Shown here in pieces: positions 1 through 44,338 of a stretch of DNA of 44,338 nt (positions are counted from its first letter, which is position 1; the number at the start of each line of letters is the position of its first letter). The DNA is taken from the IMG/VR virus record IMGVR_UViG_3300034145_000012, positions 1 to 44,338 of that record. The stretch is one strand, 5' to 3'. The notes beneath the pieces were generated by a model. That model saw nothing but the letters and a program-made list of their open reading frames with translations. It was not told the DNA's origin and did not search any database. The position numbers and the translations under genes are program-made. The DNA comes from a virus.

Positions 1-65
1 GCGCTTGCGGCGACTGCCGCCGCGCCCTACCCTCGCCCGCTATGGCTCAGTTGGGGGACAAAGCC

Positions 66-824
66 ATGGCGCTGGTTGCCTCCAGCGCCAAGGCGGCACA
101 GGCGGCGGAGAGGCTGCTGCGGGAGCGCTACCGCTTCGTGGAGCCGCATGAGGCGGACCTGATGCTCGCTTTGGGCGGCGACGGATTCCTGCTCCAGACC
201 CTTCACGAGATGCTGGCGCGGGGTCGGCTCTGCCCGGTCTTCGGCATGAACCGGGGCACGATCGGGTTCCTGATGAACGACTGGCGGATCGACGGGCTGA
301 TCGAGCGGCTCGATCGTGCCAAGCCCTTCTCGATCGCCCCGCTCCAGATGACGGCGCACCGCATCAACAGCGAACAAGTCGTCCATCATGCGATCAACGA
401 GGTCTCGCTGCTGCGCGAGACCCGCCAGACGGCGTGGATCGAGATCTCGGTCAACGGTCGCGTCGTGCTTCCGGAGCTGATCTGCGACGGCGTCCTGGTC
501 GCCTCGCCGGCCGGATCCACCGCTTATAATTATTCCGCGCACGGGCCCATCCTGCCCCTCAATTCGAAGCTGGTCGCCCTGACCCCGATAAGCCCGTTTC
601 GGCCGCGGCGCTGGCGGGGGGCGCTGATCCCCGAGGACATCAAGGTGTCGCTGCGCGTGCTCGATCCCAAGAAGCGCCCGGTCTCGGCGGTGGCGGACCA
701 GCACGAGGTGCGCGACATCGACCGGGTCGAAGTCTGCGTCGACCGCGCCCAGGCGCTGACCCTGCTGTTCGACCCCGAACATGCGCTGGACGAGCGGATC
801 GCCATGGAGCAGTTCGCGGTCTGA
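66..824 (+). CDS. nadK: NAD kinase
   Basis: ATP (or polyphosphate) dependent kinase that converts NAD to NADP in the cytoplasm. The 252-residue product has the family GGDG motif at about residues 37-40, the NE-containing segment (INEVSLLRET) and the glycine/serine-rich ASPAGSTAYN stretch of the NAD site. Length fits the short bacterial NadK form. I chose ATG 66 because a GGGGGA ribosome site lies at 53-58. An in-frame ATG at 42 has no such site. It is a host housekeeping gene outside the prophage, followed by a hairpin and then tRNA-Asn. Identity is secure; the start is less so. Confidence 0.93.
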   Translation: MALVASSAKAAQAAERLLRERYRFVEPHEADLMLALGGDGFLLQTLHEMLARGRLCPVFGMNRGTIGFLMNDWRIDGLIERLDRAKPFSIAPLQMTAHRINSEQVVHHAINEVSLLRETRQTAWIEISVNGRVVLPELICDGVLVASPAGSTAYNYSAHGPILPLNSKLVALTPISPFRPRRWRGALIPEDIKVSLRVLDPKKRPVSAVADQHEVRDIDRVEVCVDRAQALTLLFDPEHALDERIAMEQFAV

Positions 825-1156: not shown

Positions 1157-2407
1157 GTGCTGACCGACCTGCAGTGCCGATCGGCGAAGGCCGAGGAGAA
1201 GGCGCGCAAGCTGGCCGACGGGAAGGGGCTCTACCTCTTCGTCACGCCGACGGGCCACAAGTCCTGGCGCTGGAAATACCGCTTCGGCGGCAAGGAGAAG
1301 CTGCTCGTGCTCGGCAGCTATCCCGAGCTCGGGCTCAAGGCGGCGCGCGACCTACGGGATGCGTCGGACCGGCTGCGGCGCCAGGGGACCGATCCGGCCG
1401 AGGCCCGGCGCGCTCCGCCCCCGTCGGCCGCGCCCTCCTTCGAGGAGCTGGCCAGGGGCTGGCATGCCGACCAGCTGACGCGCTGGAAGAAGAAGCACGG
1501 CGAAACCGTGCTGAGCAGCCTGAAGCAATGGGTCTTCCCGGCGATCGGCGCGGTACCGGTCGACCTGGTCACGCCGCCGAAGGTGCTCGAGGTGGTCGAG
1601 GAGATCCAGGATCGCGGCGCGATCGAGACGGCTCACCGGGTGCTGGGTCGGATCGAGGCGGTGCTGGACCGCGCGATCGCGCGGGGGCTGATTGGGAGCA
1701 ATCCGGCCGCGGCGATCGCGGGGGCGCTCAAGCCCGTCGTCGCCGGCCGACTGCCGGCGCTGACGAAGCTCGAGGAGGCCCGCGCCTTTTTGAAGGCCGC
1801 CGAGGCACTGGCGGGGCAGCCGACGACCAAGCTCGCCTCGCGGCTGCTCGCCCTGACCGCGGTTCGGCCGGACGTCATCCGCTTCACCCCCTACTCGGCC
1901 GAGTTCGACACGCTGGCGACGGAGGAGGCGCTCTGGCGCGTGCCGGCGGAGCGGATGAAGCTGCGCCTGGCGGAGTCGAGGGACGAGGCGCACGAGCTGC
2001 TCGTGCCGCTGTCCCGTCAGGCGATCGAGACGATCGAGGCCGCCCAGGCCGTGGCGGGGCGCTCGGAATGGCTGTTCCCGAGCGAGCGCTTCACGGATCG
2101 GCCGATCAGCGAGAATGCGCTCAGCGACTTTTATCGGCGGGTGACGGAGTTCAGCGGCCGTCACGTGCCGCACGGCTGGCGCTCGACCTTCTCGACGGTG
2201 ATGAACGAGCTCGCCGTGGAACGCGAACGCGCCGGCGACGGCGATGTCATCGAGCTGATGCTGGCGCACAAGCCGCGCGGCGTGCGGGGTATCTACAATC
2301 GCGCCGCCTATATGAAGCGGCGCCGGGAGATCGCCCAGGAATGGGCGGACATGCTGCTGGAGGGCTTCCCGCCGCCCGATGCACTGTTCGACGGTCGGCG
2401 CCGCTGA
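1157..2407 (+). CDS. Tyrosine recombinase / phage integrase (Int1)
   Basis: Site-specific recombinase of the P4-like integrase family, 416 residues. It has the N-terminal DUF4102-type arm-binding region (GLYLFVTPTGHKSWRWKYR), a core-binding domain and a C-terminal catalytic domain. The likely catalytic set is intact: R237 (TAVRP), K268 (MKL), H339 and R342 (HGWR), H371 (LAHK) and nucleophile Y380 (IYNRA). The box around R237 is unusual, with TPYS where relatives have GARW. The start is GTG 1157. It lies 160 bp inside attL, so it is the best candidate for the enzyme that recognises tRNA-Asn. It is a clear paralogue of the second integrase at 3286-4473. Confidence 0.93.
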   Translation: MLTDLQCRSAKAEEKARKLADGKGLYLFVTPTGHKSWRWKYRFGGKEKLLVLGSYPELGLKAARDLRDASDRLRRQGTDPAEARRAPPPSAAPSFEELARGWHADQLTRWKKKHGETVLSSLKQWVFPAIGAVPVDLVTPPKVLEVVEEIQDRGAIETAHRVLGRIEAVLDRAIARGLIGSNPAAAIAGALKPVVAGRLPALTKLEEARAFLKAAEALAGQPTTKLASRLLALTAVRPDVIRFTPYSAEFDTLATEEALWRVPAERMKLRLAESRDEAHELLVPLSRQAIETIEAAQAVAGRSEWLFPSERFTDRPISENALSDFYRRVTEFSGRHVPHGWRSTFSTVMNELAVERERAGDGDVIELMLAHKPRGVRGIYNRAAYMKRRREIAQEWADMLLEGFPPPDALFDGRRR

Positions 2408-2426: not shown

Positions 2427-3122
2427 ATGACGGCCGCAGCCCGCACATTCCAGCCGGTCCGCCGGAACAGCCGCCACCTGGGCGAGCGCGAGCATCGGAT
2501 CTGGCATCCGATCGGCGCCACCAACGAGGATGCACGGCGCTTCGTCGGCGCCCTGATTAAGGCGGCCGAGCAGCACGACGACGAGACGAAGAAGCCGGGG
2601 GCGCAGATGGGCGCCCTGGGCCTGACAGGGGTCAAGGTGCTGAAGGCGCTCTGCAGCTTCGTCTGCTATCGCAGCGGCCGCCTCGATCCGTCGATCGCGC
2701 GCCTGCAGGAGCGCACCAGGCTCGCCCGGGCAACGGTCGTGCGCGCGCTGGCGCGGCTCAAGGAGGCCGGCTTCCTGGATTGGCTGAGGCGCACCGAGCC
2801 CGTCGAGAATGACGGCGCCGGGCCCCAGGTGCGGCAGATCACCAATGCCTATTGGTTCGCGCTCAAGGAGGGGGCGCTGGCGCGAGTCAAGCGCCTGCTC
2901 GGGCGAAGACCCCCGCTCCCGGCCGACGCCGTCCAGCGGGCGCGCCAGGACGCCGGAGAAACCCGGCGGATGCTGGCCGCTGCGCCGTGCGAGGACCAGG
3001 CCACTTTCCTTGCCGGCAGCGACAACCCTCTCGGGGAAGCCCTCGCCGGCCTCGGCCGCGCGATGGATCAGAGCGCGAGTTCAGAATCGCGCCAGAATCC
3101 GGCCGAAGATTCAAGGATATGA
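2427..3122 (+). CDS. Winged-helix protein, replication-initiator-like
   Basis: A 231-residue protein starting at ATG 2427 behind a GGGGAGG site (2414-2420), 19 bp after Int1, so probably cotranscribed with it. The middle part (LTGVKVLKALCSFVCYRSGR, then IARLQERTRLARATVVRALARLKEAG) is a winged helix-turn-helix of the kind seen in plasmid RepA-like and phage replication proteins. A short wing follows, then a basic linker and a low-complexity tail. It could bind an origin or act as a regulator. With no other replication initiator visible, origin binding is attractive but unproven. Confidence 0.6.
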   Translation: MTAAARTFQPVRRNSRHLGEREHRIWHPIGATNEDARRFVGALIKAAEQHDDETKKPGAQMGALGLTGVKVLKALCSFVCYRSGRLDPSIARLQERTRLARATVVRALARLKEAGFLDWLRRTEPVENDGAGPQVRQITNAYWFALKEGALARVKRLLGRRPPLPADAVQRARQDAGETRRMLAAAPCEDQATFLAGSDNPLGEALAGLGRAMDQSASSESRQNPAEDSRI

Positions 3123-3285
3123 TGACGCGCTTCGCGCGGCGCCATTTGATGGGCGGGTGATCGCACCAACAACGCTAAAATCCGGCTAACGGGCGCACTG
3201 CCCAACCCCCGCAAGGGCTCGCCGAGAGGGAGCGTGGCAAGAAGCGCGCCACAATTCCGCCGGCTATGCGCCTGGCGCGGCGGCC

Positions 3286-4473
3286 CTATGCGGTGACGAG
3301 ATCGGCCCAGCGCTGGAACAGATCCCGGCGCCGCTCGAGATGCTCGGCCCGGTTATACGCCGCCTCGACCTTGTCCTTCGGCGCATGCGCCAGCGCGCGA
3401 TCGATCAGGTCCCGGTCCCCCGGGCTGCGCTCGTTCATGATCGTGGAGAAGGTAGCTCGCCATCCGTGCGGGACGTGCCGGCCGGAATGGCCGGCGCGGA
3501 TGTAGAGCTCGCCGATCGCGGCCTCGCCGATCGGCAGGCGGCCGCCGCGGCCGGGAAAGACGAAGCCGGCGTCACCGGCGATCGCGCGCGCCTGGCGCAG
3601 GACGTCGACGGCCGCCGCCGAAAGCGGCACCAGGTGATCGGCCGCGGGATCCGCCTTCTTAACCTGCGTCAATTTCATCCGCGCCGCGGGGATGCGCCAG
3701 AGCGGCGCTGCACCGTCGAGATCCTGGAACTCGTCCCAGCGGGCGCCGCGCAGCGCCGCGAGGCGGACGGCGGTCAGCGCCAGGAATCGGGAAGCGAGCT
3801 TGACGATCGCCGCGGCGTCGACGCGCTCGGCCGCGGCGAGCAGCGCGCGCGCGTCGGCCAGCTCGAGCAAAGCCGGGTGGCGCCGCGTGGCCGGCGACGG
3901 CGCCAAAGCGCGCGCGACGATCGCGGCAGGATCCGCCGCGGCGATTCCTTCGGACATGGCGAAGCCGAAGACGCCGGAGATGCGCTGGCGCAGGCGCCGG
4001 GCGGTCTCGACGGCGCCGCGGCGTTCGACGTCCCGCAGCACGCGCAACACCGCCGGCGCGTCGATCGCGCCGAGATGCAGCGCGCCGATCGCCGGGAACA
4101 CGTCGCGCTCGAGGCTGGTGAGGACGTCGGCCGCGTGGACCGTCGACCAGCGCGCCAGCTGGTGGGCGTGCCAGCGCCTGGCTGCTGCTTCGAATGTGGC
4201 CTCGATCGACGCGAGCTCGGCCGAGCGGGCGGTCGGATCCTCGCCGCGGCGCAGCTGCTCCCGGGCCCGGTCGCGCAGCTCGCGCGCGTCGACCAGGGCG
4301 ACGTCGGGGAAGTCGCCGAAGGTGAGCAGCTTCTCGCGGCGCTGGTACCGGAATTTCATCCGCCAGGTCTTTGAGCCGCTCGGCCGGACGTAGAGGTACA
4401 GCCCGCCGGCGTCGCCCAGCTTGTACGCGCGCGCGGAAGGGCGCGCGGCCTTGACGGTCGCGTTGGTGAGCAT
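3286..4473 (-). CDS. Second tyrosine recombinase / integrase (Int2)
   Basis: A 395-residue P4-like integrase with the same architecture as Int1: arm-binding region (GLYLYVRPSGSKTWRMKFRY), core-binding domain (WHAHQLARW, VFPAIGAL), and catalytic domain with R in LTAVRLAALRGARW, K in MKLTQ, HGWR, LAHAP and nucleophile Y in AAYNRA. All catalytic residues are present. ATG 4473 is preferred over TTG 4476 because AAGGA lies 5 bases before it. It faces attL and is divergent from the small gene at 4501. Having two intact, related integrases in one prophage is unusual. It may be a paralogue, a relic of another element, or a control protein. Confidence 0.92.
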   Translation of the reverse strand: MLTNATVKAARPSARAYKLGDAGGLYLYVRPSGSKTWRMKFRYQRREKLLTFGDFPDVALVDARELRDRAREQLRRGEDPTARSAELASIEATFEAAARRWHAHQLARWSTVHAADVLTSLERDVFPAIGALHLGAIDAPAVLRVLRDVERRGAVETARRLRQRISGVFGFAMSEGIAAADPAAIVARALAPSPATRRHPALLELADARALLAAAERVDAAAIVKLASRFLALTAVRLAALRGARWDEFQDLDGAAPLWRIPAARMKLTQVKKADPAADHLVPLSAAAVDVLRQARAIAGDAGFVFPGRGGRLPIGEAAIGELYIRAGHSGRHVPHGWRATFSTIMNERSPGDRDLIDRALAHAPKDKVEAAYNRAEHLERRRDLFQRWADLVTA

Positions 4474-4500
4474 CAACGTCCTTCGAAATTGGAGGGAAAT

Positions 4501-4731
4501 GTGGGCGAACAGGACTCGATTGTCGTCGCGGCTGCTCGGCAGCTCACCTCATATGCAGAGCTGGCCTTTAGGAACTCCCAGCCGGTTCGGGTCTGGGGAG
4601 GTGGCCTCGAGGGTGAGCACGCCTCATGGATCGGCTGCGACGAGGAGACCTGTCTTGTGTCCGTTCAGCTTGCGACTGGCGGCATGGTGCACATGCTCCC
4701 GGGGGCGCTGATCGGGATCCGCGCCGGCTGA
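4501..4731 (+). CDS. Small hypothetical protein
   Basis: A 76-residue acidic protein of unknown family, starting at GTG 4501 behind GGAGGG (4491-4496). A TTG at 4489 is a weaker alternative. It has no membrane segment; the pattern of short hydrophobic stretches and glycines suggests a small beta-rich fold. Start codons of this gene and Int2 are only 27 bp apart, so the two share a control region and it may influence integrase expression. I do not recognise the family. Confidence 0.55.
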   Translation: MGEQDSIVVAAARQLTSYAELAFRNSQPVRVWGGGLEGEHASWIGCDEETCLVSVQLATGGMVHMLPGALIGIRAG

Positions 4732-4765
4732 CCGAGGCGGACACGTCCTCCGCCGTGTTAATCGG

Positions 4766-4784
4766 CGCTTTTCGCCGAAAAGCG
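4766..4784. terminator. Palindromic hairpin CGCTTTTCG/CGAAAAGCG
   Basis: A near-perfect 19-bp palindrome, CGCTTTTCG-C-CGAAAAGCG, lies 35 bp after the stop at 4731. It would fold with 7-bp arms and a 5-base loop. There is no long T run after it. With the stronger inverted repeat at 4797-4831 it probably separates two convergent genes. Confidence 0.4.
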
Positions 4785-4796
4785 TGGCATTAGCGA

Positions 4797-4831
4797 GGGT
4801 ATGGATCGGGGCCGTACCCCGATCCATACCC
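4797..4831. terminator. Perfect 15-bp inverted repeat between convergent genes
   Basis: GGGTATGGATCGGGG (4797-4811) and its exact complement (4817-4831) flank a 5-base loop. The site lies between the small gene ending at 4731 and the methylase ending at 4850, which are convergent. A bidirectional terminator is the simplest reading, although T tracts are missing. The arms contain the GGGGGTAT-type motif seen at the prophage ends, so protein binding is an alternative. Confidence 0.5.
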
Positions 4832-4849
4832 CCAGATGACCGCGCTACC

Positions 4850-5701
4850 TCAGGCTGCCTCGAGCGCCTCGATCGCGCACGGCCGGTTGGTGATGACGAG
4901 CTCACGTCCGTCATTGTGATGCTTCGACACGCTGTACCTGAAGGCCACCGGTTGGACCGTAAACTCAGCGAAGAATTCACGCACCTCCGGTTTGTCGTTG
5001 ATCGTGAGGATGAAGCTGCCGGCGAGCTGGCGGAGTCGCGCGCGCAGCGTCTCATAATCGGCTCGTGAGAAGAGCTCTTTGCCGTACAGGCCTTCGATTC
5101 CCCAGTAGGGCGGGTCGATGAAGAACAGGGCCTCTGGTCGATCGTAGCGCCGCATCAAATCATCGAACGGCAGCCGCTCGATGGTCACGCCCGCCAGTCG
5201 CTCGTGCAGGTCCTCGAGCGCCGGCTGGAGTCGGGTAACGTCGAAACGACCGGGACGGTGCGGGCGCAGCCCGAACACGCCTTCACGAAGGCCCCCGTAG
5301 GTGGTGCACTGCAGGTAGAGGAATCGCGCCGCTCGCTCGAGGTCGGTCAGCGTCTCCGGATTGGTCGCCCTGAGCCGCTCGAACTCCACCCGGCTGGTGA
5401 GCTGAAAGCGGAGCATATCCAGGAACGCGACGTAATGACGCTGCAGGATGCGGAAGAACGTGGAGACGTCGCCCGACAGGTCGTTGATGACCTCCGCAGG
5501 TGGCTTCCGGTCGCGCCGCAGGAAAACCCCACCCATCCCGAGGAAAGGCTCGGCATAGGTCTTGTGAGGGATCGCATTGATCGCTGCGATGAGCTTCTTC
5601 GCCAAGCGGCTCTTTCCCCCGACATAGGGAGCAGGCGGCACGATTGGCTTCACGATGGCAGCCGGCGTCGCCGGCCGGAATTCGGTCGCTGTTGATTCCA
5701 T
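4850..5701 (-). CDS. DNA adenine methylase (D12 class)
   Basis: Transfers a methyl group from S-adenosylmethionine to the N6 of adenine in DNA. From ATG 5701 the product has 283 residues. Near its start it has the SAM-binding motif PYVGGKSRL, then a YAEPFLGMGGVFLRR segment, NDLSGDV, and the catalytic DPPYWG motif in the second half. These are typical of Dam-like D12 enzymes. A GTG at 5737 would add 12 residues, but no ribosome site favours it. No restriction enzyme is adjacent, so it is a solitary methylase, likely protecting phage DNA from restriction or altering regulation. It lies downstream of the lysis genes on the same strand. Confidence 0.92.
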   Translation of the reverse strand: MESTATEFRPATPAAIVKPIVPPAPYVGGKSRLAKKLIAAINAIPHKTYAEPFLGMGGVFLRRDRKPPAEVINDLSGDVSTFFRILQRHYVAFLDMLRFQLTSRVEFERLRATNPETLTDLERAARFLYLQCTTYGGLREGVFGLRPHRPGRFDVTRLQPALEDLHERLAGVTIERLPFDDLMRRYDRPEALFFIDPPYWGIEGLYGKELFSRADYETLRARLRQLAGSFILTINDKPEVREFFAEFTVQPVAFRYSVSKHHNDGRELVITNRPCAIEALEAA

Positions 5702-5926
5702 TGCTGATGTGAGTCCAAATAGCCCCGCCCGGTGCACGGGTGCGGGGCGCTAACGGCTGGGCCAGCCGTGCGTGACGGGTAATCGGACTGGTTCCCGTCG
5801 GTTGCTGGGTTGCCGCCCAGCACCCCCGCTCCGGCCCTACGCGCCAGGGCGCGACCGTGCAGAGGGTGTTCCGAAAATAGCAGGATGCGCCGCCGCCGCA
5901 AGCGGCGACGGCCATCCCTTCGCGCC
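5702..5926. other. Intergenic region with hairpins
   Basis: A 225-bp gap between the lysis operon and the methylase. It holds a tight hairpin ACGGCTG-GGC-CAGCCGT (5753-5769) near the methylase start. It also holds GC-rich inverted repeats around 5888-5937, one spanning the stop of the 5927 gene, which may end the late transcript. No additional ORF with a convincing ribosome site was found. A methylase promoter is expected here but I cannot point to it. Confidence 0.4.
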
Positions 5927-28464: not shown

Positions 28465-29247
28465 CTAGAGGATACCCGCATGCGCCGCGGCAAGGGTCGC
28501 GTCGTCCACTTCCTTGCAGACGCCGCCGAGGATCCGCGGCCAGAGGTCGAGCGCGTCGATCAGCAGCCTCTTGGCTTTGCGATTGTGCATCCGGTACCTC
28601 TTCGCGACGATCGTGAAGCCCTCCGGCTCGCCGACGATCATGTCGAGCACCGCGGCGATCGGCCCGCGTACCTCGGCGCGCCAGCGCGTATAGGCCATCT
28701 CCCGCCGCACCTGGCCGAGCCGCTCGTGGAAGGTCCCGTCGCCCATCCTCGTCGCGTCGACGCGGGTCTCGAGGCTGGCGGTCTTCACCGCGACGTCGGC
28801 GCCGATCCGCTCGGCAACGGCGGCGATCTCGACCGCCGCGTGCAGCTGCTCGCTATCGATCTCGCCATTCTTCCACAGCCGGGCGAGCGCGCCCTGGTTG
28901 CGGCGCGATGCGTGCTCGTGCGTCTCGGGCGTGCCGTCGCGCTTGTGGCCCCAGCGCTCGAGCATCTGCGCGCGATCCTTGCGGATCCGGCGTTCGGACG
29001 CGGCCGCTTCGGGATGGCGACGGGCCCAGCGCTCCTTGGCGGCCTCCGCGGCCGCGACCTGCAGGCGGTCGAGCTCGCCGGCCTTGCGCCGGCGATCGGG
29101 CCTGGTCGACCAGCTGGCGGTGGAGGATGTCGTCGCCCCTGCTGCGGCGTGGGCGGAGCGCGCCTCGCGCCGCTGCGCGAGCGCAACCCGATGTTCGCGC
29201 GCGGCGATCGCGCGCATCACCTTCGCCTCAGCCGGCAAATTCTCCAT
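28465..29247 (-). CDS. Probable late gene regulator (Q-like position)
   Basis: A 260-residue basic protein of unknown family from ATG 29247. The first third is Ala/Arg-rich and helical. The middle is helical (GALARLWKNGEIDSEQLHAAVEIAAVAERIGADV in sequence). The C-terminal part, GPIAAVLDMIVGEPEGFTIVAKRYRMHNRKAKRLLIDALDLWP in order, resembles a helix-turn-helix. It overlaps the upstream LexA-like gene by 20 bp and lies directly before a leader and terminator ahead of the late operon. The same order occurs for the lambda antiterminator Q, so a late activator or antiterminator is the best guess. No homology to Q was seen. Confidence 0.6.
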   Translation of the reverse strand: MENLPAEAKVMRAIAAREHRVALAQRREARSAHAAAGATTSSTASWSTRPDRRRKAGELDRLQVAAAEAAKERWARRHPEAAASERRIRKDRAQMLERWGHKRDGTPETHEHASRRNQGALARLWKNGEIDSEQLHAAVEIAAVAERIGADVAVKTASLETRVDATRMGDGTFHERLGQVRREMAYTRWRAEVRGPIAAVLDMIVGEPEGFTIVAKRYRMHNRKAKRLLIDALDLWPRILGGVCKEVDDATLAAAHAGIL

Positions 29248-29599
29248 GGTCGACCGTCCCCGTCCCACTTCCCGAGCCCGGATCATGGTCGAGCTCGGGG
29301 AGCATGGGCAGTCCGCTTTTCGTCAACCCGGCGTCGTTGACGATCCAGCCCTGCCGCGCGAGGATCACCAGCGCGTCGGCCTCGCTGATCTCCTCCTTCC
29401 GGTCGATCAGCCGGATCCCGCGCCTTTTGCCGGCGACGTGGCGGATCATCTGGTCGACGGCGAGCTGGTGGACCAGGTCCGACGCATGCTGCCGCGACAC
29501 GCCGAGCTCGGCGCCGATCTCGGCCAGGCTGGGGCTGTCGCCATAGGCGGCGAAATAGCGCTTGATGAAGTCGAGCGCCTGCAGCTTGCGGCTGGCCAT
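29228..29599 (-). CDS. LexA-like winged helix-turn-helix regulator
   Basis: A 123-residue protein from ATG 29599 with a LexA-type DNA-binding domain at about residues 3-65 (LQALDFIKRYFAAYGDSPSLAEIGAELGVSRQHASDLVHQL in pieces). There is no protease domain, so it is not a self-cleaving LexA. The C-terminal half has KEEISEADALVILARQGW and an acidic end. It is encoded just before the Q-like gene with overlap and faces a palindrome-rich region (29630-29686), a plausible operator. It probably controls early-to-late switching. Confidence 0.75.
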   Translation of the reverse strand: MASRKLQALDFIKRYFAAYGDSPSLAEIGAELGVSRQHASDLVHQLAVDQMIRHVAGKRRGIRLIDRKEEISEADALVILARQGWIVNDAGLTKSGLPMLPELDHDPGSGSGTGTVDHGEFAG

Positions 29600-29629
29600 G
29601 GTCGGCTTGAGGCGGCGATGCTCCCCCAC

Positions 29630-29709: not shown

Positions 29710-29973
29710 ATGGACGATTCGCAGCCCCGCATCACCGTCACTCCCGAACAGCTCGAGCGCAACTTTCGAGTCTGGTTGAAGGTCATGCCCCTCCACCTCT
29801 GGCGACCCTATCAGGCGATGCTGGCGGTCGATCCTACGCGGCGCACCGAAGAGCATCGCGTGGATCCGCACGACATCCTCGCCGCCTATCTGCGCGAAAA
29901 ATTCACCCTTGCGCGCTGGACCGCCACATACCCGGAGCGGGCGCCCGTCCTAGACCGCAGCGGGCCCGCTTAG
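29710..29973 (+). CDS. Small hypothetical protein, single plus-strand gene
   Basis: An 87-residue protein from ATG 29710, the only plus-strand gene in this stretch. It has an amphipathic first half (TVTPEQLERNFRVWLKVMPLHLWRPYQAML) and basic and acidic patches, with no membrane segment. It is convergent with the XRE gene, overlapping by 4 bp at 29970-29973. The promoter would lie in the palindrome-rich gap shared with the LexA-like gene. Family unknown. Its start is the most upstream ATG. Confidence 0.6.
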   Translation: MDDSQPRITVTPEQLERNFRVWLKVMPLHLWRPYQAMLAVDPTRRTEEHRVDPHDILAAYLREKFTLARWTATYPERAPVLDRSGPA

Positions 29974-30245
29974 TCTAGCCCGGCCAGCGCATCCTCGCAG
30001 CCGCGAAACCGGCCCCGCAGGGGGGCGAGGCACGCCGGCGTCACGCCCAGCGCCGCCGCCAGGCGCTTCGCCTGCTCGTCGCGCAGCCGCCTGCTCTCCT
30101 CGATCCTGCGCAGCTCGGACGGCGGCATCTCCGCGCGGCTCGCCAGCTCGCGCTCCGAAAGGCCCCGATGCTTGCGCCACACGGTCACCGGAAAGGCGCC
30201 GGCGTGCAGCTGCTCGATCAGCCGGTCCGGCAGCGGGTCGGTCAC
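29970..30245 (-). CDS. XRE-family DNA-binding protein
   Basis: A 91-residue helix-turn-helix protein of the Cro/CI type. Residues about 20-68 show the core: FPVTVWRKHRGLSERELASRAEMPPSELRRIEESRR, with recognition helix around PPSELRRIEE, then an Ala/Leu helix (RLAAALGVTPACL). It is the last gene of the repressor-led minus-strand operon. It could be an autoregulator of that operon or an antitoxin-like partner of the small protein at 30252-30452. Confidence 0.8.
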   Translation of the reverse strand: MTDPLPDRLIEQLHAGAFPVTVWRKHRGLSERELASRAEMPPSELRRIEESRRLRDEQAKRLAAALGVTPACLAPLRGRFRGCEDALAGLD

Positions 30246-30251
30246 CGCTCC

Positions 30252-30452
30252 TCAGCGCGCCTCGACCAGGTGGCCGAACTCGCGCCCCAGCCTTTCGGGG
30301 TCGTTCCTGATCGCGATCGCGCGGTCCGCATCCCGGTCGCCCGGCGTGCCGATTCTCACCACGCCGCTCCGGCCGGCGGTGTCGTAAATCAGCCAGACCA
30401 GATTGTCGCCGTCCGGACCGCGCACCCCGTAGGTGAAGGAATCGCCTGCCAT
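30252..30452 (-). CDS. Small hypothetical protein upstream of XRE gene
   Basis: A 66-residue protein from ATG 30452, with beta-like segments (SFTYGVRGPDGDNLVWLIYDTAG, GVVRIGTPGD) and a helical end. It ends 6 bp before the XRE start. The pair of a small protein followed by an XRE regulator looks like a toxin-antitoxin module, but there is no family match to a RelE or HigB toxin. A 13-bp palindrome (30454-30466) lies just upstream of its start. Confidence 0.5.
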   Translation of the reverse strand: MAGDSFTYGVRGPDGDNLVWLIYDTAGRSGVVRIGTPGDRDADRAIAIRNDPERLGREFGHLVEAR

Positions 30453-30453
30453 G

Positions 30454-30466
30454 CCGGTTCAACCGG
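30454..30466. promoter_or_regulatory. Palindrome CCGGTT-C-AACCGG upstream of small gene
   Basis: A perfect 6-bp inverted repeat with one central base, 2 bp upstream of the start codon at 30452. It could be the operator of the XRE protein encoded two genes downstream. Such a site would make the last two genes a sub-operon with their own control within the 83-bp gap after the nuclease gene. Confidence 0.4.
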
Positions 30467-30535
30467 AGTCCCGCCGGCGAAGTTCCGTCAGGCTATCAGC
30501 TGCGACGGTAAAGGCCGCGCGAGCTAGCCTCCCCT

Positions 30536-30922
30536 TCACCAGCGCCGGGCCCAGCCGGCGCGGACCATCGCCTCGCCCAGGTCGCCGACGCCTTCGGCCG
30601 AGCAGCGTACCACCGGCCGTCCGTAAGGATCCGCGCTCTGGAATCCGCTCAGCCGCGGCGAAGCGTCGACCACGCGGCAGCGCACCGCCCGGCCCGCGGC
30701 GAAGGCGCGCAGCGCGGCCTGCGCCCGCCGGCCGAGCCGGTCGTTGCACCAGGCGCGACTCCGCGCCCCGCGCCTGCAGCTCGGCGAGCCCGCCAGCTCC
30801 GGCGCGTTGATCCCCGCCAGCCGCATCTCCCGCCCGCCGGCGCAACGAATGTTGTCGCCGTCGTGGAACGTCGGGGAGGCGCAGGCAAAGGCCGCCTGCA
30901 GCGCGATCATGGCGAGGCTCAT
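30536..30922 (-). CDS. SNase-like (thermonuclease) nuclease with hydrophobic N-terminus
   Basis: A 128-residue nuclease of the staphylococcal nuclease fold. Catalytic residues are visible: R34 and E42 in MRLAGINAPE, and R102 in DPYGRPVVRC, with calcium-binding acidic residues in FHDGDNI (D21, D23). Residues 1-16 are hydrophobic (LAMIALQAAFACAS), suggesting export, but lack the usual positive start. If exported it would degrade nucleic acid in the periplasm or at the surface. ATG 30922 follows the HIRAN gene by 4 bp. It is the most enzyme-like member of the repressor-linked cassette. Confidence 0.82.
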   Translation of the reverse strand: MSLAMIALQAAFACASPTFHDGDNIRCAGGREMRLAGINAPELAGSPSCRRGARSRAWCNDRLGRRAQAALRAFAAGRAVRCRVVDASPRLSGFQSADPYGRPVVRCSAEGVGDLGEAMVRAGWARRW

Positions 30923-30926
30923 CGGT

Positions 30927-31256
30927 TCACGCCGTGGGCCGGTAGCGTCGGCTTTCCAGCTCGGCGTCGCAGAGCTTGACGTCGAGCACGACGTCCAGAT
31001 GCTCAGCAGTTCCACGCTCGATGCTGGCGATGATCGCCTCGCATCCCTGGCCCTGGGTAAGGATGGCGCCGCGCAGCCAGTTGGAGCGGGGGATATAGCC
31101 GATCACCATGCCGCGCATGCTCTCGACCGCCAGCGCCTCCTCGTCATAGGGGTTGCCCACCTCGTGGACGACATAGACCTTCTCGCCGGGCCGACACTGG
31201 CGAATCGCCGGCTGGTAGTTTTGCTCCCCGACCAATCCGACCTTGTAGCTGCTCAA
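30927..31256 (-). CDS. HIRAN-domain protein
   Basis: A 109-residue protein made up mostly of a HIRAN domain (SSYKVGLVGEQNYQPAI, KVYVVHEVGNPYDEEALAVE, GMVIGYIPRSNWLRGAIL). In eukaryotic HLTF, HIRAN binds 3' single-stranded DNA ends; in bacteria it occurs alone or next to nucleases in mobile DNA. The start is TTG 31256, overlapping the lipoprotein stop as TTGA, with AGGGAGA upstream. It is followed by the SNase gene with a 4-bp gap. A DNA-end sensor working with the nuclease is plausible but unproven. Confidence 0.8.
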   Translation of the reverse strand: MSSYKVGLVGEQNYQPAIRQCRPGEKVYVVHEVGNPYDEEALAVESMRGMVIGYIPRSNWLRGAILTQGQGCEAIIASIERGTAEHLDVVLDVKLCDAELESRRYRPTA

Positions 31257-32017
31257 TTGCGATCTCCCTGGGCATGATCCACCGGCACCAAGACAGGTGG
31301 TTCGGGTGGGCACATGGCCGAGCTATGCCCCTCCGCCTCGAAATTCCGGCAGCGCTGCTTCCTGAGCTCGTATAGCTCGGTCATCCGGCGGTTGGTTTCT
31401 CGCGCCCGGCGCCGCTGGTCCTGGACAACCGGATCGCGCGCCCGCTCGCGGCGGAACTCCGCCTCCTCAGAGGCCTGCTCGTCCGGGCTGCGCTCGCTGC
31501 AGAGCGCGGCGAAGCGCTCGCGCTCGGCCCGCGGGAGGTCGATCCGCCACGTCACCGGCGTCGGCGCGTGCCCGTAAAGCCCAGTCAGCTGGACGGTCTT
31601 CGCCCGCGCGATCGCGAGCACCAGGCGCTGCTCCTCCGCATAGGTCAGCCCGCCCTCCTGGTTCGGGTGCTGGCTGCGCGGCGTCCAGCTCGCCGGCGGC
31701 AGATATCCCATCTCCAGCCGAAGCGGAGCGCCGCTGTCGATCGTCACCGTCCCGAACACGCCCCGCAAAGGCGGCGGCGAGGGCGAACCGCGCACCAGGC
31801 CAAAGCTGACGAACAGGCTGCCGACGTCGCACGAGACGTAGAGCTTCGGGCGCTTGCCGTCGATCGGATCGGCATCGTCGCTGCTGAGCTCCAGCCCGCT
31901 CAGCGGCTTCTCGGCGCGCTCGACGCTGGCGCGGCCGCCCGTCTTCCTCTCACCGCCGCCGCACCCGGACGAGGCCAGCAGCAGGGCGAGCGGGAGGAGG
32001 TTTCGCAACCACATCAT
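31253..32017 (-). CDS. Lipoprotein of unknown function in repressor operon
   Basis: A 254-residue protein with a lipoprotein signal, MMWLRNLLPLALLLASSGC, the lipobox cysteine being residue 19. The next part is linker-like, then a beta-rich domain (LYVSCDVGSLFVSFGLVRG, FGTVTIDSGAPLRLEMGYLPP). The C-terminus is a charged helix (EEAEFRRERARDPVVQDQRRRARETNRRM in sequence) and a Pro/Cys-rich tail. It is anchored to a membrane facing the periplasm. Its stop overlaps the HIRAN start by 4 bp. A superinfection-exclusion factor is one possibility. Family unknown. Confidence 0.75.
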   Translation of the reverse strand: MMWLRNLLPLALLLASSGCGGGERKTGGRASVERAEKPLSGLELSSDDADPIDGKRPKLYVSCDVGSLFVSFGLVRGSPSPPPLRGVFGTVTIDSGAPLRLEMGYLPPASWTPRSQHPNQEGGLTYAEEQRLVLAIARAKTVQLTGLYGHAPTPVTWRIDLPRAERERFAALCSERSPDEQASEEAEFRRERARDPVVQDQRRRARETNRRMTELYELRKQRCRNFEAEGHSSAMCPPEPPVLVPVDHAQGDRN

Positions 32018-32262
32018 TCCTCGGGGGGATCCACGGCGCGGCTTTCGACTATCGCCCTGACTATGACGGAGCAGCCCAGCAGCACGATCCCACCCAGAAG
32101 CGCGACCGCCGCCCCGAGAACGAAATAGGTCGCGCCTAGCGGGTCATCGAAAACTTCGGACTGCGGAAACAGTACCGGCCACAGGAAGCCGACCAGGCCG
32201 ACCATCGAGAGGAGATAGCCCCAGGCGCCTAGGGCATCGCCGGTCGCCTTCCGGTCAGACAT
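32014..32262 (-). CDS. Two-helix membrane protein next to repressor
   Basis: An 82-residue protein from ATG 32262, which has GGAGGG 8 bases before it. It shows two membrane segments (AWGYLLSMVGLVGFLWPVLF, and YFVLGAAVALLGGIVLLGCSVIV) with a short loop and a charged end. It overlaps the lipoprotein start as ATGA and lies 16 bp after the repressor stop. Longer in-frame starts run through the repressor gene and lack a ribosome site. Size and topology resemble phage exclusion proteins, such as those that depolarise or guard the membrane, but there is no sequence match. Confidence 0.65.
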   Translation of the reverse strand: MSDRKATGDALGAWGYLLSMVGLVGFLWPVLFPQSEVFDDPLGATYFVLGAAVALLGGIVLLGCSVIVRAIVESRAVDPPEE

Positions 32263-32278
32263 GCGCAGCACCCTCCAC

Positions 32279-32734
32279 TCAGCCCGAAGATCCGCTGTCG
32301 CCGGCTCGATAATGATCCTGCGTGCCATGGAGCGTCGCCCTAGCCTGCTCCCCACGCGTCGGATCGTTCGCGTCGCGCAGCGTGCGCACCAGCGCGCGCG
32401 CGATCTTCTGCTCCCTCGGCGGCACGGCGAAATAGTCCTCGAGCAGCGCGGCCGCGCCCGGATCAAGCTGCGCCGCCTCGGATCGCTCGCCGGTCAGGAC
32501 GTACAGAACGTCAATTCCCAGCATGGCCGCAGTTGCCAGGTCAGCCGCACGAAGTTCGGTAGCCCCGGTTTCAATGCTGCTCAGCTTGCCCTGCTTCACC
32601 CCCATTCGGTCCGCGAACCTGCCTTGGTGCGGCTCCACCCTCGAACGCTCTTGGCGAAAACGGACGGCGATTTCTTCGAAATGATCAGAATCCAGTTGAC
32701 GATTTCTGATATTAGCGGAAGAACGAGGCGACAT
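32279..32734 (-). CDS. Phage repressor, XRE helix-turn-helix (CI-like)
   Basis: A 151-residue repressor from ATG 32734. The helix-turn-helix lies at about residues 14-70 (FEEIAVRFRQERSRVEPHQGRFADRMGVKQGKLSSIETGATELRAADLATAAMLGIDVLYVLTG in pieces). This is the XRE family with a Tyr-Val-Leu-Thr-Gly end typical of phage repressors. The C-terminal part is helical and lacks a Ser-Lys self-cleavage domain, so induction may need another factor. It is divergent from a Ner-like gene with 23 bp between start codons, and its gene leads the minus-strand cassette. Confidence 0.87.
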   Translation of the reverse strand: MSPRSSANIRNRQLDSDHFEEIAVRFRQERSRVEPHQGRFADRMGVKQGKLSSIETGATELRAADLATAAMLGIDVLYVLTGERSEAAQLDPGAAALLEDYFAVPPREQKIARALVRTLRDANDPTRGEQARATLHGTQDHYRAGDSGSSG

Positions 32735-32757: not shown

Positions 32758-33087
32758 ATGCCTGCCGAGTCTCTGTTTGCCCCGATATCGAAGGACGCGA
32801 TCCGGCGGGCTCGTGCACGACTCGCCCTAGCCGGCCAGTCGGTCGAGGATTGGTCCGTCGCCAACGGCTACAACGCCAAGACCGTTTACGGGGTGCTGAG
32901 CGGCGCCCGCCCCGCGATTCGCGGCAAGGCGCTGAAGATCGCGATCGCGCTCGGCCTTCGCCAACATCCCGACGCTCCCGGCCACCAGGGCCCAGCTGCT
33001 TCCATCGATCGCAATCTAGCCGCCGGCCTCCCGGCCTCCGATCGGAATCGGAGCTCCGGATTACAACTCGGCGAGCCGGCGCGGTGA
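32758..33087 (+). CDS. Ner/BcepMu gp16-like early regulator
   Basis: A 109-residue DNA-binding protein and first gene of the early operon. The region ARLALAGQSVEDWSVANGYNAKTVYGVLSGARPAIRGKALKIAIALGLR (in pieces) matches the BcepMu gp16/Ner family of phage regulators. Those have the helix-turn-helix pattern V-x-x-W-A and YxVLSGxxxxxRGxAxKIAxxLGL. The C-terminal 35 residues are disordered. It would be the Cro/Ner-type counterpart of the divergent repressor. It ends with a GTGA overlap to the next gene. Confidence 0.82.
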   Translation: MPAESLFAPISKDAIRRARARLALAGQSVEDWSVANGYNAKTVYGVLSGARPAIRGKALKIAIALGLRQHPDAPGHQGPAASIDRNLAAGLPASDRNRSSGLQLGEPAR

Positions 33088-43239: not shown

Positions 43240-44338
43240 TCAGCCTAGCTGCCCGTGGCAGTGCTTGTACTTCCTGCCCGATCCGCACGGGCAGGGCGCG
43301 TTGCGGCTGGCCGGCATCACGTCGGCGTCCGCCAGTACCGTGTCGGGCATGTCGGGCTTGGGCGCCTGGAGCGGGGGCAAGCGTGACAGGATCGCGCCGG
43401 TGCTCGCATCCATATCGGCCGTGTCGTCGTCGCCCGACAGCGGGTCGATATGGTGCGTGATGAAGTCCGGCATCTGCGGCAGCGGATCGGCCTCGAAGCG
43501 GAATTGGGCGTGGGCGAGGGCCGAGGTCACGTCCTCGCGGATCAGACCGAGCATCCGCTCGAACATCGCGAACGCCTCGTGCTTATATTCGTCGATCGGC
43601 TTCTTCTGCGCATAAGCGCGCAGGTGCACGACCTGGCGCAGCGCGTCGAGCATCGACAGATGCTCCTTCCAGTGATGGTCGAGGAACTGGAGCATGTAGC
43701 TCTTCTCGATCTGCACCCAGCTCTCCGGCGGGATGTCCGCCGCCTTGGTCGCGATCTGCTCGTCCGCGAGCGCCTGGATGCGCTCGACGAACATCTCGGG
43801 CTCGACCGCCTCCTCCTTGACCCACTCGTCGACCGGCGGAGTCAGGCCGAACACCGTCTCGAGCCGGGTCTTGAGGAGCTCCACGTCCCACTGTTCGGGG
43901 TAGGAATTGGGCGGGATCGCCTCGCCGACGATCGAATTGACCATGTCGGTACGCATGTCCTGCATCACCTCGCCGATCGCGTCGGCGTCCATGATGTCGG
44001 CGCGCTGCTCGTAGATGACGCGGCGCTGGTCGTTCATCACGTCGTCATATTCGACGACCTGCTTGCGGATGTCGTAGTTGCGCGCTTCGACCTTCTTCTG
44101 GGCGGTCTGGATGGCCTTGGCGATCCACGGTGAGATGATCGCCTCCCCTTCCTCCAGGTTCGATCGCACCATCTTCGAGAACATCGTCTGCGGCCCGAAG
44201 ATGCGCAGCAGGTCGTCGTCGAGGCTGAGGTAGAAGCGGCTGAAGCCGGGGTCGCCCTGGCGGCCCGAACGGCCGCGCAGCTGGTTGTCGATGCGCCGGC
44301 TCTCGTGCCGCTCGGTGCCGAGCACGAACAGGCCGCCG
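43240..44338 (-). CDS. secA: Preprotein translocase ATPase SecA (partial, C-terminal part)
   Basis: The motor that drives proteins through SecYEG. Only the last 366 residues or so are inside the window; the 5' part continues beyond 44338. Visible marks are the helicase motif VI region ([27 protein letters not shown]), [34 protein letters not shown] and the C-terminal zinc site [17 protein letters not shown]. It has the typical end of alphaproteobacterial SecA. It is a host gene with no sign of damage. Confidence 0.97.

Follow-up and report, generated by a model that had tools for sequence, protein, structure and literature searches.

Genes that are cotranscribed with a phage repressor and exclude other phages are known from phage lambda (rexAB) and Gordonia phage CarolAnn (genes 43/44) (PMC6426606), and in Salmonella BTP1 the gene bstA lies behind cI (PMC7067206, PMC8585504). 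HIRAN proteins of mobile elements, namely HipN/PDC-M03B and those of diDNase-HipA-HIRAN clusters, have a predicted role in defence (PMC8262856, PMC11706625; PADLOC), and HIRAN domains such as that of HLTF bind DNA ends (PMC8262856, PMC4666394). Here we describe seven minus-strand genes (32734-29970) in IMG/VR record IMGVR_UViG_3300034145_000012, which was analysed over its whole length of 44,338 bases (69% G+C) and is referred to below as the window. The genes begin with a candidate immunity repressor and include one for a HIRAN protein and one for a staphylococcal nuclease-like (SNase) protein. The operon is of a type already known (the lambda cI-rexAB or cI-bstA kind), and its carrier is apparently a temperate sphingomonad siphophage. 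We favour, with middling confidence, the explanation that it is a lysogeny-linked accessory operon in a hypervariable slot behind the repressor, most likely excluding other phages.

The hypervariable slot and its operon

Relatives of the window phage were reached through the large terminase, which yielded 28 phages with a related gene; single-protein scans of viral contigs for the HIRAN protein, the SNase-like protein and the lipoprotein of the window gave no matches. Slots were read from raw open reading frames (ORFs) as well, since the gene caller skips some low-scoring genes, several repressors among them. Gene order is largely kept in the relatives, running from early genes through a Cro-like gene, the repressor, a variable stretch, a LexA-like gene, g28465 and an HNH gene to the small and large terminase genes. 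The stretch between the repressor and the LexA-like gene holds different content in nearly every related phage, between flanks that are kept, and is a hypervariable accessory site.

Overall, the slots contain toxin-antitoxin pairs, PARIS (AriAB), small membrane proteins, and HIRAN or SNase-like genes. HIRAN genes occupy the slots of relatives L013, L024 and L025, and an SNase gene that of L011. The toxin-antitoxin genes comprise HicAB (L024, L025), ParE with a helix-turn-helix (HTH) antitoxin (L013) and HI1420-type antidotes (L011, L024). The slot of L032 carries an AriAB fusion, that is, PARIS (3842-5497; PADLOC E 9e-117); the expected repressor was not located in this phage, and a CRP-like regulator stands in that position. 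A PD-Lambda-2_B-like HTH fragment was found in the slot of L020. Furthermore, envelope-type proteins make up 13 of the 22 proteins encoded at the first two positions behind the repressor, compared with 28/237 elsewhere in the same phages (p 1e-6), and proteins counted for transmembrane (TM) segments only make up 9/22 (p 1e-3), both p-values being optimistic and usable as guides only. At least one envelope-type protein is encoded behind the repressor in 11 of 12 phages.

In the window, the accessory genes lie directly downstream of the repressor and are codirectional with it. A preliminary description of the locus had listed the seven genes with spacings of 16, -4, -4, 4, 83 and 6 bp, and we recovered the same arrangement. 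All seven ORFs were also called independently by a codon-usage caller trained on the other genes of the window, with a shorter start for the repressor. The genes and the two slot borders are listed below (protein lengths in amino acids, aa).

32758..33087 (+): divergent Cro-like HTH gene, one slot border (phrog_925, E 2e-12); similar divergent HTH genes occur in the relatives
32279..32734 (-): immunity repressor candidate, HTH_31/XRE-like, 151 aa, operon gene 1 (HTH_31 below cut-off; phrog_2328)
32014..32262 (-): small membrane protein, 82 aa, two predicted TM segments (hydropathy 2.45)
31253..32017 (-): predicted lipoprotein, 254 aa, an orphan, with LLLASSGC at its N-terminus
30927..31256 (-): stand-alone HIRAN protein, 109 aa, TTG start (Pfam PF08797, structure model and PDB matches)
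30536..30922 (-): SNase-fold (thermonuclease-like) protein, 128 aa (Pfam PF00565; R34/E42/R102)
30252..30452 (-): 66-aa protein, no assigned function, 83 bp downstream of the SNase gene, operon membership uncertain
29970..30245 (-): XRE/HTH_3 DNA-binding protein, 91 aa, antitoxin- or repressor-like, last gene
29228..29629 (-): LexA-like winged-HTH protein, slot border kept in related phages

The repressor shows a weak match to Pfam HTH_31 (20.3 bits, E 7e-4, below the cut-off) and matches phage repressors in PHROG (phrog_2328, transcriptional repressor, E 7e-8). No S24 peptidase domain (PF00717) was found in the whole record, the repressor included. Between the repressor and gene 7 there is one terminator-like site, located inside the TM gene, and shuffled sequence yields more such sites. 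Cotranscription of the first five genes, the repressor included, is plausible. PADLOC called no complete antiphage system in the window, giving partial HIRAN and HTH matches only. A plus-strand ORF of 87 aa (29710-29973) is convergent with the last cassette gene (XRE/HTH_3) and overlaps its 3' end by 4 bases.

A HIRAN clade linked to prophage repressors

Close homologues of the window HIRAN protein are encoded next to a repressor at 9 of 11 loci of the family survey, compared with 2/19 for more distant HIRAN proteins and 3/30 for SNase homologues. The linkage between HIRAN and repressor has a p-value of ~2e-4, or 4e-4 after removal of near-duplicates. A tree built from 38 HIRAN domains places all repressor-linked members on one side of a branch with 98% support. 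The arrangement with HIRAN downstream of, and codirectional with, the repressor is spread across this side of the tree; HIRAN genes convergent with an S24 repressor form one nested group, and the S24 repressors of L053 and L057 were confirmed by Pfam. The linkage thus spans different repressor types (with and without S24) and both orientations in most of the sphingomonad prophages examined. A HIRAN relative is also present in Sphingomonas echinoides ATCC 14820 (L041).

Eight more HIRAN loci came from a survey of 385 alphaproteobacterial genomes. Two of these, both in prophages from outside the sphingomonads, are repressor-adjacent: one shows the order S24 repressor, TM zinc-ribbon protein, HIRAN (L128/L131), the other a HIRAN gene convergent with an S24 repressor (L124/L132). 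Several HIRAN proteins carry a predicted membrane segment of their own, N-terminal in L013 and L063 and C-terminal in L024 and L044. A membrane segment and HIRAN therefore occur together as fusions in L013 and L024 and as adjacent genes in L128; in the window, the gene for the two-TM protein sits two genes upstream of the HIRAN gene. By eye, the HIRAN proteins encoded in L024 (2914-3732), L025 (4344-5105) and L061 (1501-2142, minus strand) have an extra N-terminal stretch resembling a degenerate second HIRAN domain that lacks NPYD.

The preliminary description had named the HIRAN and SNase families from the translations, and both assignments hold at the Pfam level. The HIRAN match (PF08797) scores 34.4 bits against a cut-off of 24.7, and the structure model has a predicted local distance difference test (pLDDT) score of 94, with human HLTF HIRAN (4s0n/4xzg) and lp_0118 (3k2y) as PDB matches. 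The NPYD motif is kept (N35, P36, Y37, D38). We take the 3'-end pocket of HLTF to include Arg71, Asn91 and Asp94 besides Tyr72 and Tyr93. Set against the full HLTF-type pocket, the window protein has the Asn/Tyr/Asp motif, and the positions of Arg71 and Tyr72 are not kept in the sequence alignment. In HLTF, Tyr72 and Tyr93 flank a DNA dinucleotide (PMC4666394). Binding of DNA ends by the window HIRAN protein is plausible on these features.

The structural genes of the window comprise tail genes and an HK97-type head module with portal, protease and terminase; two tyrosine integrases are encoded as well. Host-like genes lie at both ends of the record, a NAD kinase-like gene with GGDGFLL at 42-824 (+) and a SecA-like C-terminus at 43240-44325 (-), both recognised by eye, so that the window represents a provirus with host flanks. 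Since the relatives of its SNase and HIRAN proteins come nearly all from Sphingomonadaceae or Erythrobacteraceae, the host is likely a sphingomonad. The integrases, at 1157-2407 (+) and 3286-4476 (-), belong to the same PHROG (phrog_1) and lie on opposite strands near the left end; one of them may be the gene of a neighbouring element. The left part of this prophage also carries a DNA methyltransferase gene (4850-5737, minus strand; phrog_56, E 2e-76).

Mosaic gene content and competing explanations

Pfam models detected HIRAN in 4 of the 28 relatives and SNase in one, and never both together. Among 398 Sphingomonadaceae genomes, 46 encode a HIRAN protein and 150 an SNase relative; no pair of the two was found within one operon. 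The nearest distances between them were ~2 kb, in the L115 prophage, where a weak SNase-like gene (31%) belongs to a separate early operon, followed by 9 and 13 kb. The lipoprotein gave no credible match in viral contigs, genome contigs, the 398 family genomes, plasmids or phages, and its single-sequence AlphaFold2 model, which shows a long C-terminal helix, has too low a confidence to assign a fold (mean pLDDT 49). No second occurrence of the full gene set was seen among the relatives and genomes searched. The combinations that do recur are repressor with HIRAN and, in a few cases, membrane segment with HIRAN. Without a HIRAN-SNase pair, and with a lipoprotein found nowhere else, the gene set is best described as a mosaic, whose members come and go separately among the relatives.

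The SNase match is a narrow pass (PF00565, 23.9 bits against a cut-off of 21). The residues R34 and E42, pointed out in the preliminary description as catalytic, are present, and together with R102 (the R87 equivalent) they correspond to the Arg35/Glu43/Arg87 set of staphylococcal-type nucleases. In the 'GIDAPE' motif, however, the metal-ligand Asp (Asp40) is replaced by Asn39 in the window protein, while Asp is found in four aligned relatives and in L112, suggesting that the activity of the window protein may be reduced. Conserved cysteines are seen, and one relative (L004) has a clear signal peptide; on plasmids, homologues also occur in a variety of settings that lack HIRAN. The window protein is probably a general nuclease that is exported, or else an impaired member of that kind, and need not take part in a HIRAN mechanism. 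The closest SNase relative in the family survey (55%; L112, 9180-10179) follows a HicAB-like pair and neighbours the tail genes of another type of phage, with no repressor operon. In L023 (2989-4094), the repressor is followed by an exported protein and then a degenerate SNase-like protein (VWDGDGPIYC...IRLAEIAARE), the latter missed by the Pfam SNase model. The exported protein (2989-3669) resembled the core of the window lipoprotein by eye; BLASTP and hhalign gave no support for this likeness (E 0.14), no relatives of the exported protein were found in 329 genomes, and the likeness is given no weight here.

These results bear directly on the proposal of the preliminary description, in which the lipoprotein, the membrane protein and a possibly exported nuclease jointly attack incoming DNA at the envelope while HIRAN marks DNA ends. 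Its picture of a repressor-led operon stands and gains from a slot that holds accessory and known defence genes and is enriched in envelope proteins; the integrated nuclease system is not supported. The five genes are tightly packed, membrane segments recur with HIRAN in L013, L024 and L128, the slot of L011 contains an SNase-like gene, as does that of L023, where the gene looks degenerate by eye, and the conserved cysteines with the L004 signal peptide make export possible within the SNase family. Against this, the conserved neighbourhood of HIRAN, SNase and lipoprotein genes on which the proposal had been staked beforehand was not borne out: at the Pfam level none of the 28 relatives has both HIRAN and SNase, no close pair was found in the 398 genomes, and the lipoprotein is without detectable relatives. 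In addition, the metal-ligand Asp is Asn, and HIRAN would be cytoplasmic while the nuclease would be periplasmic. Because co-occurrence is lacking, we regard this as the least likely rival and as quite improbable.

A somewhat better prospect, possible if doubtful, is that the genes are passenger morons, unrelated cargo using the repressor promoter, with the SNase a general exported sphingomonad thermonuclease and no exclusion of phages. SNase homologues are indeed common (150/398 genomes) and occur on plasmids, the lipoprotein and the 66-aa ORF are orphans, and slot content is unrelated from phage to phage. However, the enrichment in envelope proteins and the persistent repressor-HIRAN linkage exceed what random cargo would give, and PARIS occupies the same slot in L032. 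Alternatively, HIRAN might be a lysogeny-control factor that acts on single-stranded DNA or DNA ends and tunes damage induction, as 434 Hex, a repressor-linked precedent, blocks RecA-stimulated repressor cleavage (PMC3564112). HIRAN domains do bind DNA ends, and HIRAN stays next to the repressor when the orientation changes and when a repressor type without S24 gives way to one with S24. Yet the membrane anchors on several HIRAN proteins would be unexpected, and neither the window repressor nor the rest of the record has an S24 domain, so that the Hex mechanism is not directly applicable and was ruled out for the window. We consider lysogeny control unlikely, less so than the integrated system and more so than passenger cargo.

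The favoured explanation, an accessory operon serving exclusion, would work as follows. The first five genes would be transcribed with the repressor and hence made in the uninduced lysogen, where their most likely job would be the exclusion of other phages. The two-TM protein and the lipoprotein may have their site of action in the inner membrane or on the surface of the cell. HIRAN would be the DNA-binding part, contacting phage DNA that enters or replicates at its ends or where it is single-stranded; in the window clade it would sometimes be membrane-held through its own anchor. The recurrence of HIRAN genes next to prophage repressors suggests a role in the dormant state, perhaps in excluding rival viruses. 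More specifically, and only tentatively, the prophage HIRAN clade could be a lysogeny partner that is held at the inner membrane, through a TM segment of its own or a neighbouring membrane protein, captures the injected DNA ends or replicative single-stranded DNA of a rival and aborts its infection, its place beside the repressor being kept through changes of repressor type and orientation.

Several observations weigh against the exclusion operon. The one promoter-like match, which precedes the repressor ATG by 5-6 bases, is weak (9/12), and no membrane anchor is predicted in the window HIRAN protein itself. In the convergent subclade the repressor promoter cannot serve HIRAN, so the linkage may reflect a cause other than cotranscription. 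The HIRAN genes of Xanthomonas phage Mallos and Stenotrophomonas phage DLP4 (PMC6469090) lie amid early genes or in a replication module and are not repressor-adjacent as far as the annotation shows, which indicates that repressor linkage is specific to the window clade and not general for HIRAN. It should be noted that the envelope enrichment was obtained with manual gene choice and simple hydropathy on related phages. The window TM protein has a topology like that of the slot TM proteins of L005, L011, L019 and L020, of which it is at most a putative homologue, with a weak identity (~23% to the L005 protein).

Comparison with known systems

In the libraries searched, no window protein matched a known exclusion protein by sequence. 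The literature searched held no description of a HIRAN clade with repressor linkage and membrane-anchored members, and no test of a bacterial function for the HIRAN proteins of phages or defence islands. This repressor-tied clade, with its membrane-anchored members, offers a specific testable hypothesis, the lysogen-expressed capture of foreign DNA ends, and the slot behind the repressor in the window phage group, with PARIS in one relative, is a place to seek new exclusion genes.

Among HIRAN proteins, HLTF HIRAN (4s0n, 4xzf) and lp_0118 (3k2y) share the fold and the NPYD motif with the window protein, which differs from HLTF in being a stand-alone domain and, in the alignment, at the Arg71/Tyr72 positions. 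The HIRAN part is also hit by the PDC-M03B models of PADLOC; however, no HipS-like domain was seen and no HipA kinase (HipA_C) was found in the record. With the match limited to the HIRAN part, membership of HipN/PDC-M03 was rejected, and no diDNase was found among the genes scanned. The SNase-like protein shares 40-55% identity and the DGD and R/E/R motifs with sphingomonad thermonucleases (plasmids pNL1 and others), from which it differs by the Asn in place of the motif Asp and by its location in a prophage repressor operon.

Like bstA behind cI of BTP1, HIRAN of this clade is an accessory gene with a conserved position beside the repressor across diverse prophages. The HIRAN, SNase and TM proteins are set apart from BstA by family assignment, and part of the HIRAN clade is convergent with the repressor. 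No aba-like element for self-immunity was identified in the window, although no search was aimed at one. In lambda cI-rexA-rexB and CarolAnn 43/44, as in the window, genes directly behind the repressor encode a small membrane protein and a soluble partner in a variable slot; the window has HIRAN in place of RexA, together with a lipoprotein and an SNase, and its exclusion of other phages is predicted.

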